A stretch of DNA of 39,674 bases from Alphaproteobacteria bacterium (GTDB lineage Bacteria; Pseudomonadota; Alphaproteobacteria; Micavibrionales; Micavibrionaceae): positions 1 through 39,674 of the forward strand of contig JAJFGW010000051.1 in NCBI GenBank assembly GCA_021775915.1, in the 5' to 3' direction. Shown here in pieces: positions 3,951-10,779 of the stretch (the first letter of the stretch is position 1; each line of letters opens with the position of its first letter). Made by a program: the position numbers and the translations under genes. Under the pieces are notes generated by a model. It was not told where the DNA came from. It was given only the letters and a program-made list of their open reading frames with translations, and searched no databases.

Positions 3951-4751
3951 ATGTCCTCTTTTGATATTACAATTGCCGCAGGTGCGGGTTACAAGCTGGT
4001 GTGGGCCGAGCGTAGCTATTTAATAAAGCTGGCCGCTGCGCCGTTTCTGATTAAGCTTGTTTGTTTTATGGTTGTCTTGCTTTTGGGTTGGGAAACGAAC
4101 TTTATTCGCCAGGCTCTGGTTATGTTGCCCTCCTATTTTGCCGATGGCTGGCTTTTCTCTCACCTTGTGCGGCTTGTTTTTCTGGATCAGCGCTGGCCTT
4201 TTCGGCCAACGGGTAATACCGGCAAGGACATGCAGATTTTGCAAGACCGGGCGCTGGGTATTATGAGGGGAATGCTCAGTTTTGTTGTCATCAGATTCCT
4301 TATGGCTGGTGTGACGGCTGTTTTGTACGGATATAGTCAGGTGGCTCATATAGAGGACGCACAAGACGGGGGCGTTAGTCTGCTTATGTTTGTTATTGCG
4401 CTCGCCAGCCTTATTTCCTTCTTCTGGGCTTTTCGGCTTTTATGGCTCTATATTCCGGCGGCCGTTAATTATCCGCTCCGGTGGTTTATGCGTGATTTGG
4501 GTGGGTATTTCACTTCATGGCACTTGATAGGGCTGTGGCTGTTTTGTTTTGTTCCACCCTTTTTTACTTTTGGTTTGGTATTCTCAGTTCTAAGTGCTGC
4601 GGCAGGAGATCCGGAGGGGGCGACTGGGATTATTTTTGTTGCTAATTTGTTGCGCGTGCTTCTGGATACGCTGGTGGGCGTTCTTTCTACGGCATGTATC
4701 GCTTACGGCATTAAAAAATACATATTGCCGTCTGCTGATAACGAGGCATAG
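3951..4751 (+). CDS. Hypothetical multi-pass membrane protein, 266 aa
   Basis: No family recognised. Hydrophobic segments at about 26-46, 105-127, 141-165, 186-213 and 226-252 predict five or six membrane helices. The N-terminus (SSFDITIAAGAGYKLVWAERSYL) is amphipathic, and a basic loop with RWPFRPTGNTGKD occurs near 81-93. No ribosome site is visible before the ATG; instead two direct repeats end right beside it. The gene follows the reductase in the same direction and converges on usg. It is probably an inner-membrane protein of unknown role. Confidence 0.7.
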   Translation: MSSFDITIAAGAGYKLVWAERSYLIKLAAAPFLIKLVCFMVVLLLGWETNFIRQALVMLPSYFADGWLFSHLVRLVFLDQRWPFRPTGNTGKDMQILQDRALGIMRGMLSFVVIRFLMAGVTAVLYGYSQVAHIEDAQDGGVSLLMFVIALASLISFFWAFRLLWLYIPAAVNYPLRWFMRDLGGYFTSWHLIGLWLFCFVPPFFTFGLVFSVLSAAAGDPEGATGIIFVANLLRVLLDTLVGVLSTACIAYGIKKYILPSADNEA

Positions 4752-4755
4752 CTTT

Positions 4756-5022
4756 CTACTGAAGTGTTAATTCAACATCATGGAATTTCGTATCGCCCGG
4801 TGTGATAAGTTCTTTGCTGGCAACGTAAACTGAATGAAGTTTGCCATCGAGATTGCTGTCCCAGAAATCAAGAAAACCGTACAGAACAGGGAATTTGGGC
4901 GCGATATCATATTCTTGCCATACGTAGCTTTGGAGTAGTTCCGGGAAATCCGGCATATGATAATATATCTCCGCCGTTGTCAGGCGGTAGTCTTTTACAA
5001 ATTGTTTTTCAAAATTAGCCAT
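4756..5022 (-). CDS. usg: Usg family protein
   Basis: An 88-aa protein matching the alphaproteobacterial Usg family (first noted near tryptophan genes; biochemical role unknown). Typical family segments are YRLTTAEIYYHMPD (12-25), PELLQSYVWQEYDIAPKFP (27-45), FLDFWDSNLDGKLHSV (51-66) and the following VASKELI. The start is well supported: AGGAGG lies 8 bases before the ATG at 5022. It reads away from groES and converges on the membrane-protein gene. Its presence is one of the clearer alphaproteobacterial markers here. Confidence 0.85.
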   Translation of the reverse strand: MANFEKQFVKDYRLTTAEIYYHMPDFPELLQSYVWQEYDIAPKFPVLYGFLDFWDSNLDGKLHSVYVASKELITPGDTKFHDVELTLQ

Positions 5023-5175
5023 TCATAAAACCTCCTGGTTTTTTCTTTCTATTACAAACCATTATAGCAAAAAATCCTGTTTTACTAAAGACCATGATGA
5101 CATAGGCTCCTTGCAAAACCGTTAATGGAAGCGCGTTAGCTAATGCTGCGGCGCAGCGCGATATGTAAGAAAAGA

Positions 5176-5206
5176 CTTGAAATATATGCGCAGGTAGCCT
5201 AAATAG
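5176..5206 (+). promoter_or_regulatory. Sigma-32 (RpoH)-type heat-shock promoter for groESL
   Basis: CTTGAAA at 5176-5182 and CCTAAATAG at 5198-5206, with 18 bases between CTTG and CCTAAAT. This fits the alphaproteobacterial RpoH pattern CTTG-N17/18-CYTATNT with one mismatch. No CIRCE operator is seen, so control by RpoH rather than HrcA is the simplest reading. Confidence 0.65.
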
Positions 5207-5295
5207 TTGGCATCTACGACATTAATGAATGTGGGCAGAAAGGTTCTGCTGGTAGATTATTTGTTTTAAAACAATAACTTAGGAGTGTAGCGAAG

Positions 5296-7297
<2,002 letters not shown>

Positions 7298-7314
7298 GTC
7301 TGCTTTCCATTCAC

Positions 7315-7343
7315 TTGATACAAATATAAAAGAGCCGTATGGT
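7315..7343 (+). promoter_or_regulatory. Promoter predicted to make a leaderless peptidase mRNA
   Basis: TTGATA at 7315-7320 and TATGGT at 7338-7343 have exactly 17 bases between them. The predicted start point, about 7 bases after the -10, falls on the A of the ATG at 7350. No ribosome site precedes that ATG, as expected for a leaderless message. The -10 lies inside the left arm of the groEL terminator. Confidence 0.45.
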
Positions 7344-7366
7344 CTATCCATGCGGCTCTTTCTTTT
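7329..7366 (+). terminator. Intrinsic terminator of groESL overlapping the next start codon
   Basis: AGAGCCGTATGG (7331-7342) pairs with CCATGCGGCTCT (7348-7359) with one G-U pair and a 5-base loop. Two more A-T pairs extend the stem to 14 bp, and the run TTTCTTTT follows. The ATG of the peptidase gene (7350-7352) is inside the right arm. Confidence 0.85.
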
Positions 7367-8156
7367 GACAGCTTTGGTTTTTTTTATATCTGCGCCAATT
7401 TATGCGTTGGAGCTTTCCGGCGTCTTAACGCAGGGCGGATTGGTGATTGGCACGGCGACGCCCGGTTCAAAAATTGAACTGGACGGGCAGCAAGTAGAGC
7501 TAACGGATGAAGGGCATTTTGTTTTTGGTTTTGGCCGCGATCATGGCGCGGCGGCGCTTTTAAAAATTACGACTCCCGAAAGCAAAACAGAAGAGTATAA
7601 TCTTGTTATCCGGCAAAGAGAGTACAATATCCAGCGTATTGATAAATTGCCGGGGAAAATGGTGTCACCGCCGGAAGGCACCTGGGAGCGAATTGCCAGT
7701 GACCGTACTTTGGTTGCGAATGCGCGGGAGAATAGCACAAGCACCCCCCATTTCTTGCGCGGCTTTATTCGCCCGGCTGAAGGGATTGTTTCCGGCGTTT
7801 ACGGCAGCCAGCGCATTCTAAACGGTAAGCCGAAGCAGCCCCATTACGGCGTGGATTATGCTGCGCCGGAAGGTGCGCCCGTGATGGCTCCGGCAGATGG
7901 CATCGTGCGCCTTGCCCATGCGGATCTGTATTATACAGGCGGGACGATTATTATAGATCACGGCCATGGTGTGTCTTCGACCTTGATGCATATGAGCGCG
8001 CTTCATGTTGAGGCGGGGCAACGCGTTAAACAGGGCGCGCTTATTGGCGCGGTTGGATCGACAGGCCGCGCCACCGGCCCGCATCTTGACTGGCGCATGA
8101 ACTGGCGCGATGCCCGTATCGACCCGATGACATTGGTGCCGGAATTGACAGAATAA
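7350..8156 (+). CDS. Exported M23-type peptidoglycan peptidase
   Basis: A 268-aa protein with a signal peptide (MRLFLLTALVFFISAPIYA, cut after about residue 19), an N-terminal beta-rich region with TPGSKIELDGQQV, and a C-terminal LytM/M23 domain (about 140-260). Visible motifs are HYGVDYAAPEGAPVMA (H165, D169 as metal ligands), IIDHGHGVSSTLMHMS (H214) and TGRATGPHLDW. In the usual HLH motif the last His is a zinc ligand; here it is Asp247 (HLD). This HLDW form may be a family variant or may lower catalysis. The protein probably acts on the cell wall in the periplasm. The ATG sits in the groEL terminator stem and no ribosome site is visible; the signal peptide supports this start. Confidence 0.88.
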   Translation: MRLFLLTALVFFISAPIYALELSGVLTQGGLVIGTATPGSKIELDGQQVELTDEGHFVFGFGRDHGAAALLKITTPESKTEEYNLVIRQREYNIQRIDKLPGKMVSPPEGTWERIASDRTLVANARENSTSTPHFLRGFIRPAEGIVSGVYGSQRILNGKPKQPHYGVDYAAPEGAPVMAPADGIVRLAHADLYYTGGTIIIDHGHGVSSTLMHMSALHVEAGQRVKQGALIGAVGSTGRATGPHLDWRMNWRDARIDPMTLVPELTE

Positions 8157-8224
8157 AGCTTGTGTCTTGTCTTCTTTATGTGCTTACATGCGTCCATATT
8201 TCATAAAACATATTGGGGTTTACG

Positions 8225-9550
8225 ATGTTTCATAGATATTTTAATAGCAAATCATTCGGATTTAAAGCTGTGGCTGCTTTTACGCTGGCGACATGGGCGA
8301 TGTTTGCGATGCCGGAAGTTTCATCGGCTAAAATGCGCTTCTTCACAGAACAGGAAGTGGCGGCGCGGGACTTTGCCGCTTATATTGCGGAGACGGCAGA
8401 TTCAAATGATTACAAAAATCGTTTTAATACAATGAGGGCAGATATGGAGAAGAACCCTTCTCTTGCCGGTACGGCTGTCAAAGCTTTGCCTGTATTATTT
8501 GATCAAAATAATTTGGATATGTGGGACAGGGCGCTCCAGACATTAGGCTGGATTAATGAAGTCTATCCGTTTCATGCTGATGCGGTGTCTGAAGCCTTAA
8601 AAGGAACTCTTGAGTCTTTGGAGTCTTTAGTTATTCAGGAAAATGATACGCGGTCGCGATTCTATGCGTCGGACATGGCGCGTATAATTGGTCTGTCCCA
8701 TGCCGATTACAACGTGAAGGCCCTGCAATTTATAGAGCGCTTTCGCCTTGTTGATGATAATAATCCTGACATTCGGCATGCAAACATTATAGGCGTTGTC
8801 CAATTGATAAAGAGTGAAAAATCCGCAACGCTCGCCCTTAAAATACTGGAACCGCTCGCAAAGAATTTAGACAAGTTTGATGATGAGGCGGCGTACAGCA
8901 TTGTATTTGGTATAGGTATAATCGGCATAGGATACAGCGCTTACACAAGTACTGCGATTGATTTGCTGGAACCAGCTTTGAGGATCCTAGACCAAAATGG
9001 TGCCTATAGAGAGATGAGGCTTATTGCAGATGAGCAGGAAGACCACGCGCAGAGAATTGTCGACATCCTGAAAACTAAAATCGCTGAAGGTCAGTCCGGC
9101 GCTCGGCCTGTGCACACCTTAAGAATGATTGCGGATAGTAACGACAGATATCTGCCCGATTCTTTTGAGGCTATGGCGTCTTTTACCAGACAGAATAATG
9201 ATTCGGCTATGGCTGGGAAGCTGGCAGTTATGGGCCAGACCTACAAAGCTTATACTCCTAAAGTCCTTGCCGCTTTTAAGGATATAATTTCCAAAGACAT
9301 TACGCTGTTCAAAAATATAGGCGTTATGCAGGCAGTTTCCGACATTGGTGACAGACAGCCGGAATATTTGTTGGAGGTGATGGATTTTATGACGGCGGCT
9401 ATAACAAAAGCCATGGAAGGGAAAGAAAAAAATTGGCACGTGGTTGAGAATGCTGCGGAGAGAATGAGATGGCTGCAGGCTGTTTATCAGGTGAAGGTGA
9501 TCGACAAGACACCAAAACCAGGACAAGCGCCTGTGCCGAAAGCACCATAA
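8225..9550 (+). CDS. Secreted helical-repeat protein of unknown function
   Basis: 441 aa from ATG 8225, preferred over an in-frame TTG at 8213 because GGGG lies 6 bases before the ATG. A likely signal peptide (hydrophobic AVAAFTLATWAMFAM, cleavage near EVSSA/K) directs export. The remainder is almost all helical, with repeated leucine-rich helices resembling HEAT/TPR solenoids (for example about 70-130 and 190-260), though I could not fit a named repeat. The end is proline-rich (KTPKPGQAPVPKAP). Its stop is 3 bases before fpg, so the two may be co-transcribed. Scaffold or envelope roles are guesses. Confidence 0.75.
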   Translation: MFHRYFNSKSFGFKAVAAFTLATWAMFAMPEVSSAKMRFFTEQEVAARDFAAYIAETADSNDYKNRFNTMRADMEKNPSLAGTAVKALPVLFDQNNLDMWDRALQTLGWINEVYPFHADAVSEALKGTLESLESLVIQENDTRSRFYASDMARIIGLSHADYNVKALQFIERFRLVDDNNPDIRHANIIGVVQLIKSEKSATLALKILEPLAKNLDKFDDEAAYSIVFGIGIIGIGYSAYTSTAIDLLEPALRILDQNGAYREMRLIADEQEDHAQRIVDILKTKIAEGQSGARPVHTLRMIADSNDRYLPDSFEAMASFTRQNNDSAMAGKLAVMGQTYKAYTPKVLAAFKDIISKDITLFKNIGVMQAVSDIGDRQPEYLLEVMDFMTAAITKAMEGKEKNWHVVENAAERMRWLQAVYQVKVIDKTPKPGQAPVPKAP

Positions 9551-9553
9551 CTC

Positions 9554-10399
9554 ATGCCTGAACTTCCCGAAGTTGAAACCGTTTGCCGGGGGATGGAGAA
9601 AGCCCTCAAGGGGCGAATCATTACAAATGTAAATCAGCGGCGTAAAAATTTGCGCGTGCCTTTTCCGGCGAATCTTTCCCGTAAACTTGAAGGACAAAAA
9701 GTTGAGCAGCTCGGTCGCCGGGCAAAATATATTTTGCTTGGTCTTACAAATCAAAAAACGATGATTCTTCATCTCGGGATGTCGGGGAGAATTTTATTAG
9801 TCCCACCGAATCAAGATTACGAAATTCAAAAACACGATCATCTGATTCTCTCTTTCGACGATGATTCGAAAGTGGTGTTTAACGATGCGCGGCGATTCGG
9901 CATGGTGATGCTGGCCAGTGAAAATGAACTGGAAGGTCACAAGGCGTTTAAGGCACTCGGGCCGGAGCCTTTGGGAAATAATTTTTCCAGCTTGGTTCTT
10001 TTTGAAGCGCTCAAAAATAAAAAGACGAGCATCAAGGCGGCGCTGATGGACCAGCGCGTGGTCGCCGGGCTGGGCAATATATATGTCTGCGAGGCGCTTT
10101 TTTATGCCGGGATAGATCCCGCGCGTATTGCGGCCAGCATCACTGAAAAAGAATCGAATAAACTGGTGCAGGTGATTCGCGACGTTTTGGACAAAGCGAT
10201 TAAAGCGGGCGGCAGCACACTTAAGGATTATCACAAGGCTGATGGCACGCTCGGTTATTTTCAGTACCAGTTTGCTGTTTATGATCGGGAAGGGCAGGCT
10301 TGCCCCGGATGCATCTGTGATGTAAGCAAAATAGGCGGGGTTAAAAAAATAACGCAGGGCGGACGGTCAACTTATTACTGTTCTCAAAAACAAAAATGA
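9554..10399 (+). CDS. mutM: Formamidopyrimidine-DNA glycosylase (MutM/Fpg)
   Basis: A 281-aa base-excision repair enzyme that removes 8-oxoguanine and formamidopyrimidines and nicks the strand. The N-terminus MPELPEVETV carries the catalytic Pro2 and Glu3, and Lys58 in GRRAKYILL matches the conserved lysine. VVAGLGNIYVCEALF is the helix-two-turn-helix region. The C-terminal zinc finger has Cys250, Cys253 and Cys276 (GRSTYYC), but the position of the fourth Cys is Lys279 (CSQKQK), so metal binding may be altered. Length is normal. The stop overlaps the next gene by 4 bases, indicating coupling. Confidence 0.94.
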   Translation: MPELPEVETVCRGMEKALKGRIITNVNQRRKNLRVPFPANLSRKLEGQKVEQLGRRAKYILLGLTNQKTMILHLGMSGRILLVPPNQDYEIQKHDHLILSFDDDSKVVFNDARRFGMVMLASENELEGHKAFKALGPEPLGNNFSSLVLFEALKNKKTSIKAALMDQRVVAGLGNIYVCEALFYAGIDPARIAASITEKESNKLVQVIRDVLDKAIKAGGSTLKDYHKADGTLGYFQYQFAVYDREGQACPGCICDVSKIGGVKKITQGGRSTYYCSQKQK

Positions 10400-10779
10400 A
10401 AATAAGATTTTTAATTTTTATAGTGGCGATGATTTGTAGTGCGGGGGCTGCTGTTTTTGCCGATAGCGCAAACAGAGTTCAGGAGCAGGAATTTTTTGAA
10501 TCGCCAAGCGATATACCTTTGATGCCCGGTCTTTATGAAGTGCCGGATGAATTGGTTGTTTTTGATAAGCCGGGGGGGCGCATTATCGAATCAGTTGCGG
10601 CGTCCAAAGCTCTTGCCGGCGGTGAGATTCGTGCTTTTTATAATCAGGTGCTGCCGCAAATGGGATGGTCAAAAAGCGGGCCAAATGCTTTTATCAGGCA
10701 AGATGAATTGTTGATAATGAAGATCGAGACTCAGGATGATTTGAGCATTATCAGGTTTATGGTTTCCCCGCGTCAGTAG
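10396..10779 (+). CDS. Small exported protein of unknown function
   Basis: 127 aa with a clear signal peptide (MKIRFLIFIVAMICSAGAAVFA, cut about residue 22). The mature part of about 105 residues has MPGLYEVPDELVVFDKPGGRI followed by a helix and IRAFYNQVLPQMGW, then a strand-rich end (LLIMKIETQDDLSIIRFMVSP). It overlaps the fpg stop (ATGA), so translation is probably coupled. I have no named family for it. No lipobox Cys is seen after the signal region, so it is likely periplasmic and soluble. Confidence 0.75.
   Translation: MKIRFLIFIVAMICSAGAAVFADSANRVQEQEFFESPSDIPLMPGLYEVPDELVVFDKPGGRIIESVAASKALAGGEIRAFYNQVLPQMGWSKSGPNAFIRQDELLIMKIETQDDLSIIRFMVSPRQ

Follow-up and report, generated by a model that had tools for sequence, protein, structure and literature searches.

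Leaderless mRNAs are known from Caulobacter, Sinorhizobium, Zymomonas and Gluconobacter. The extracts of the respective papers used here give 375 leaderless mRNAs for Caulobacter, with a translation efficiency equivalent to that of other mRNAs (PMC4117421), 119 leaderless TSS-gene pairs for Zymomonas (PMC7566282), and 62 leaderless transcripts for Gluconobacter, 57 of them of genes with an ATG (PMC5756330). The extract from a Thermotoga study reports no leaderless transcripts (PMC3636130). The gene described here encodes an M23 family peptidase and follows groESL in an alphaproteobacterial genome. Like the genes of those leaderless mRNAs, it has an ATG start and no Shine-Dalgarno (SD) site, and a weak candidate promoter stands at the matching distance, with six bases between the -10 and the ATG. 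It differs from them in that the ATG is in the right arm, and the candidate -10 element in the left arm, of the putative terminator of the upstream operon.

The intrinsic terminators found after groESL in relatives have the same GC-rich stem, U-rich tail and place as that of the window. Unlike in other terminators, the right arm and U tract in the window are coding sequence of the next gene. Translational attenuators likewise use a stable stem, formed with upstream RNA, to pair a start codon or ribosome site. Unlike for those, positions 4500-10500 gave no Rfam match, and no alternative fold was seen for the window hairpin. Among the papers listed in searches on terminators near starts, leaderless genes or embedded promoters, no start codon within the terminator of an upstream operon was recognised from titles and abstract openings. 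What is new is how the locus came about, in that an arm and the tail of an old terminator have become coding sequence for the beginning of a secreted protein.

Genes and features of the locus

The window, that is the whole stretch of 39,674 nucleotides analysed, is contig C47 of a draft genome (G000, 2.45 Mb, 51 contigs). The features considered here are:

5296..5607, + strand, groES (Cpn10; Pfam PF00166, E 1.1e-35)
5642..7297, + strand, groEL (Cpn60; Pfam PF00118, E 5.1e-79), with the stop codon TAA at 7295-7297
7315..7320, + strand, possible -35 hexamer TTGATA (5/6 to TTGACA)
7329..7361, + strand, putative groESL intrinsic terminator hairpin, arms 7329-7342 and 7348-7361, loop 7343-7347 (folding and comparison)
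7338..7343, + strand, possible -10 hexamer TATGGT (4/6 to TATAAT), in the left arm plus the first loop base
7350..8156, + strand, M23 family peptidase gene, 268 aa (Pfam PF01551, E 3.3e-30), with its ATG start inside the terminator
7350..7406, + strand, predicted signal peptide MRLFLLTALVFFISAPIYA (by eye and homologue comparison), codons 2-6 of which match the terminator of relatives
7359..7366, + strand, terminator U tract TTTCTTTT (sequence), overlapping peptidase codons 4-6

The peptidase ORF is full-length and holds the whole M23 domain, which scored 104.5 bits against PF01551, above the gathering score of 28.7. The nearest NCBIfam model is Helicobacter Pgp3. It was matched by residues 68-266, the M23 domain being common to both, and the score of 136 bits lies below the curated cut-off of 300, so that the protein is not named as an equivalent.

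Downstream of the peptidase gene are an ORF of 441 aa with an apparent signal sequence by eye (8225-9550; no Pfam or NCBIfam match at E 0.001) and mutM/fpg, encoding formamidopyrimidine-DNA glycosylase (9554-10399; NF002211). A mutM relative (56% identity) is also found near groEL in the congener G003 (L117). The peptidase gene and the 441-aa ORF may therefore be insertions between groEL and mutM. Antisense to groEL, an open frame of 345 aa (6314-7351, minus strand) has no Pfam match, and its mechanically assigned ATG overlaps the peptidase ATG; the frame is probably a chance one. Upstream of groES (5176-5204), CTTGAAA at 5176 is followed after 15 bases by CCTAAAT at 5198, which we take to resemble a sigma-32 promoter. 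No match to CIRCE was found in the window with up to three mismatches, so that control of groESL by heat shock is an assumption here.

The terminator after groEL

The hairpin stem consists of 14 pairs, seven of them G-C and one G-U, closed by a loop of five bases (UCUAU). Its U tract (7359-7366, 7/8 T) lies partly inside the stem, directly after the G-C part. Folding of 7298-7380 gave a z score of -4.2, with none of 200 shuffles as good, and the stem at 7331-7361 reached -21.2 kcal/mol (z -6.9). The ATG at 7350-7352 belongs to the right arm; its pairing partners, 7338-7340, are the opening triplet of the proposed -10 element. The initial annotation had described exactly this anatomy, a 14-bp stem at 7329-7361 with the ATG in its right arm and a -10 in its left, and its coordinates were right.

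A generic terminator scan did not list the hairpin, because only four T remain in the eight bases after the counted stem, the rule stated by that scan. The tract was counted short because some of its bases pair with A residues at the base of the stem. We compared the sequences downstream of groEL at 30 loci that came out of a search in 38 genomes (35 with a match). A purpose-written scanner found a terminator at 25 of these loci, the window included. In 24 of the 25 it begins 20-51 nt after the groEL stop, and in the remaining one (L133) at +129. Among the five loci without a scanner terminator, the sequence of L132 ends at the gene and hairpins were seen by eye in L139 and L146, while in L143 and L145 neither the scanner nor inspection by eye revealed a hairpin after groEL. 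Other ORFs follow groEL in three congeners.

We accept the window hairpin as a terminator because 25 of the 30 groEL loci have one, starting at +20 to +51 in 24 of them. The outer stem, AAAGAGCCG...CGGCTCTTT, is identical in the congener G003. G005 (L149) has the stem in common with the window, plus a CTCTTTTCTTTT tail, and its CGGCTCTTTTCTTTTTT is a comparable terminator tail. Judged by the identical outer stem in G003 and the downstream terminators of relatives, the hairpin is taken to be the ordinary groESL terminator, older than its overlap with the peptidase gene. That it stops transcription is backed indirectly by its conserved position after groEL in relatives.

Start codon and ribosome site

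None of the SD cores AGGA, GGAG, GAGG or AAGG precedes the ATG at 7350, in agreement with the initial annotation, which had found no ribosome site there. Such cores precede 131 of 315 sampled starts in this genome, compared with 28 in a control interval. SD initiation is thus common in this genome, yet many genes have no core.

The choice of start codon was compared with homologues (80 loci kept of 408 found). An in-frame ATG stands 15-27 codons before the mature part at 62 of the 80 loci, and in the window it does so at 18 codons. The other 18 loci have no in-frame ATG (11 loci), one only at least 30 codons upstream (4 loci), or one only less than 15 codons upstream (3 loci). The N-terminus in the window, MR-Leu/Phe, is like that of several homologues. 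The homologues thus support ATG 7350 as the start; a conserved start codon further downstream, which according to the initial annotation would have spoken against its reading, was not seen. A hexamer-based gene caller preferred TTG 7407, and we take this as a sign of unusual codons and not of the true start.

The promoter-like site

The candidate promoter consists of TTGATA, a spacer of 17 bases and TATGGT, and is followed by six bases and the ATG. It agrees with the consensus at 9 of 12 positions. The predicted first transcribed base is a purine, the A of the ATG. T at -7 is missing from the majority of the alphaproteobacterial promoters analysed, according to the extract of that study used here (PMC8407463), and is present in TATGGT.

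A promoter scan found nine such sites in 5 kb, where 7.2 are expected. In shuffles of 7298-7349, a 9/12 site arose at a gap of 5-8 to the ATG with P 0.008, and at any gap of 0-23 with P 0.038. Across the genome sample, a 9/12 site at a gap of 6-8 was found for 5 of 314 genes, including the peptidase gene, a count within the range of other bins (0 to 11 per six positions). Among the 314-315 sampled genes of this genome, neither -10-like hexamers nor promoter-like sites were enriched at leaderless spacing. Among the 29 groEL loci with enough sequence for a promoter comparison, only three, the window included, had a 9/12 site with the -10 ending within +1..+84, and in the two others it stands at other places than in the window. 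The stem and the ATG within it are well beyond chance; the promoter match is only marginally so, and near chance. Of the earlier proposal that TTGATA-N17-TATGGT directs transcription onto the ATG itself, the sequence and the exact leaderless spacing are confirmed, but the match of 9/12 is near chance and is not backed by a genome-wide leaderless excess.

Folding of alternative transcripts

In folding predictions the stem persists in RNAs that begin at 7301 or at 7331, with total energies of -26.7 and -23.5 kcal/mol. The RNA from 7335 reaches -14.3 kcal/mol, and RNAs from 7340, 7344 and 7350 fold no better than shuffles. A transcript from a promoter upstream of the left arm should therefore end early in the peptidase gene or, on read-through, hide the start codon. 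On paper, a transcript start at 7340-7350 avoids both. The initial annotation had argued that read-through from groEL would bury the ATG and that a leaderless message would escape this; the predictions agree on both counts, as RNAs starting at or before 7331 bury it and those from 7340 on leave it free. For useful peptidase synthesis, transcription would have to begin within the left arm or beyond it, because the hairpin would hide the start in read-through RNA. The peptidase is probably made well only from a transcript beginning at or very near the start codon.

Regulation by an RNA thermometer or riboswitch was considered and rejected: neither an Rfam match at gathering score in 4500-10500 nor an alternative fold was seen, and the stem is very stable. 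At -21 kcal/mol, its stability is probably too high for a thermometer.

Relatives and origin of the overlap

A search for orthologues (E 1e-30 or better) covered 142 genomes of the order, 104 of them of the family. An orthologue of the peptidase was present in two, both of the family: the genome of the window and G023. It lies directly after groEL in both, and the two proteins are 64% identical (66% over the mature part). The congener G003 has no orthologue at this threshold.

The arrangement in G023 is conventional. Terminator, promoter-like site, SD and ATG succeed each other over 145 nt, with the terminator at +35..+68 from the groEL stop and the ATG at +146. The promoter-like site TTGCAG-N18-TAAAAT is weak (8/12, ending at +108; one of four overlapping weak matches listed), and AGGAAG stands 7 nt before the ATG. 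In the window, the terminator is at +32..+64 and the ATG at +53, so that the stretch from groEL to the ATG is 93 nt shorter than in G023. Codons 2-6 of the window gene (CGG CTC TTT CTT TTG) correspond to a terminator arm and tail, as in CGGCTCTTTTCTTTT of G005, and TTT CTT TTG lines up with TTT CTT CTG of G023. An 8-base repeat in G023, TTTTTCTT, has one copy at +64, within the terminator tail, and a second 101 nt further on, at +165, among the codons of the signal peptide. Recombination between T-rich words such as TTTTTCTT would give such a joint; the sequences are only compatible with it, as T-rich words are common.

The window ATG could also be read as the direct homologue of the G023 ATG, since a global alignment pairs ATGCGGC with ATGCGCC. 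We prefer an origin from the terminator, at least for codons 2-6, because otherwise the right arm CGGCTCTTT would match the ancestral arm by accident. The ATG itself may have either origin.

A GroEL tree (28 of the 30 loci) grouped G000, G001, G002, G003, G015 and G023 (99/96) and paired G023 with G001 (96/90). G000 and G023 are not sisters in this tree. Transfer, or loss in other species, must therefore have played a part as well, and the peptidase has a patchy history within the clade. Relatives of the peptidase were found in records titled Competibacteraceae, Aliiglaciecola, Lysobacterales and Kiloniella, among others. The gene may have arrived at the groEL site horizontally, given its near absence from the order (2/142) and its relatives in other groups.

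We propose that the peptidase gene already stood downstream of groEL when a deletion (93 nt relative to G023) joined the old groESL terminator to its 5' end. The gene appears to have lost its own promoter, leader, SD site and original start by this event. The right arm and U tract would now give the start codon together with the opening signal-peptide codons (ATG CGG CTC TTT CTT TTG). The hairpin should still end groESL transcription, around peptidase codons 4-6, and would hide the peptidase start in any RNA that reads through. The best candidate transcript would be a leaderless mRNA from the A of the ATG, made from TTGATA-N17-TATGGT. A deletion in the lineage of the window is the simplest reading; its polarity, as opposed to an insertion in G023, rests on parsimony. 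The arrangement looks like a by-product of the deletion more than a device for separating the peptidase from heat-shock transcription, as the initial annotation had suggested, and is probably a lineage-specific, deletion-made fusion.

The reading of the initial annotation is thus partly supported: geometry and folding speak for it, promoter strength and conservation do not. We give fusion plus leaderless expression, taken as a whole, about an even chance; of the two, the fusion is by far the better secured. Should the gene be expressed, leaderless expression would be the likeliest route. We suggest only tentatively that the terminator was recruited to form the beginning of a secreted protein, with the right arm serving as start codon and charged residue 2, the U tract as hydrophobic signal-peptide codons and the left arm as -10 element. 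The same 33 bases might then end one operon, start a leaderless gene and insulate it from chaperone read-through.

If the proposal is true, one small deletion can turn an ordinary gene with leader and SD into a leaderless gene shielded from the upstream operon. This would illustrate a route by which leaderless genes can arise, and why SD loss can be tolerated in Alphaproteobacteria. Insulation from groESL transcription would be a consequence, if the whole reading is right. Because U tracts encode Phe and Leu, fusions of a terminator to a signal peptide could, more generally, give rise to new leaderless genes that encode secreted proteins and are insulated. Joints of this kind can also mislead terminator predictors and gene callers: the generic scan omitted the terminator, and the hexamer-based caller missed the likely start.

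Alternative explanations

The peptidase could be made mainly by groESL read-through, by leaky termination or by a hairpin that is opened or cut (e.g. by an RNase in the loop), giving a low synthesis linked to groESL. The groESL operon is usually strong, and a few per cent of its transcription could suffice; the loop UCUAU ends two bases before the AUG. Starts without SD are also common in Caulobacter, according to the extract used here (PMC4117421). Against this stand the pairing of the start codon in a hairpin of -21 kcal/mol, the missing SD and the distance to the end of groEL, 52 nt upstream and far for coupling, and we consider read-through unlikely as the main source. We think it similarly improbable that the deletion silenced the gene, leaving an intact-looking, hardly expressed remnant with promoter-like hexamers by chance. 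The promoter score near background, the lack of an SD and the restriction of the layout to a single genome would fit such a remnant, as would the dispensability of the peptidase in this group, suggested by its presence in only 2 of 142 genomes of the order. The full-length ORF with its whole M23 domain argues against it. So do the in-frame ATG and the normal length of the signal peptide, an outcome to be expected of few random deletions.

An assembly or binning artefact, in which the 93-nt shorter junction is absent from the organism, is very improbable. The genome is a draft in 51 contigs, T-rich words flank the corresponding place in G023, and the joint occurs in no second genome of the order. 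But at the junction the terminator is intact and the start is in frame and as far along as expected, which a random misjoin would rarely achieve, and both sides of the junction agree with relatives. Least probable, and scarcely credible to us, is translation from TTG 7365 or TTG 7407, which would make the hairpin ATG irrelevant. Both codons are in frame, the coding-score caller chose the latter, and non-ATG starts occur in the family, as seen from the 3 of 80 loci with their only ATG within 14 codons and the 11 with none. Such a start would strip the charged first residues or the whole signal peptide (TTG 7365 would stand 13 codons before the mature part), no SD core precedes either TTG, and ATG codons at 15-27 codons are on offer at 62 of the 80 homologue loci.

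Rarity of the overlap

How often a terminator-like hairpin covers a start codon was surveyed with one scanner in 338 kb of the genome of the window (five contigs, whole or in part, the window included). It did so for one of 314 genes, the peptidase gene, and three others have a hairpin farther upstream. In 400 kb of a second family member, G024, none of 327 genes had a hairpin over the start; 16 had one near it, ending 10-56 nt before the start in 14 cases and lying within the gene in two. Combined, one of 641 starts was covered, and this one had been chosen beforehand, leaving none of 640 others. The scanner is strict, with a terminator within 120 nt after the stop for 16 of 315 genes in G000 and 59 of 327 in G024, and the start calls are approximate.

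A GTG-led ORF at groEL locus L133 (G010) was considered as a second example, which it probably is not:

2102-2989, GTG-led ORF of L133 (G010), its first GTG inside a terminator-like hairpin

This GTG, at +146, falls in a hairpin 129-153 nt after groEL. The ORF contains a later GTG at +233, which is the likelier start, the first GTG probably being only mechanical.

The arrangement is not conserved in relatives, where the initial annotation had suggested looking for it. No terminator-like hairpin was found within -80..+60 of the chosen start at any of 78 homologue loci (two of the 80 were skipped over start or flank demands), and the nearest relative has a conventional leader. The overlap layout is known from one genome only, so nothing on its maintenance can be read from the comparison. 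At 44 of the 78 homologue loci, the start lies within 5 nt of, or overlaps, the mechanically taken upstream ORF, which in two of the cases inspected (L023 and L043) is presumably the exonuclease VII gene xseA.
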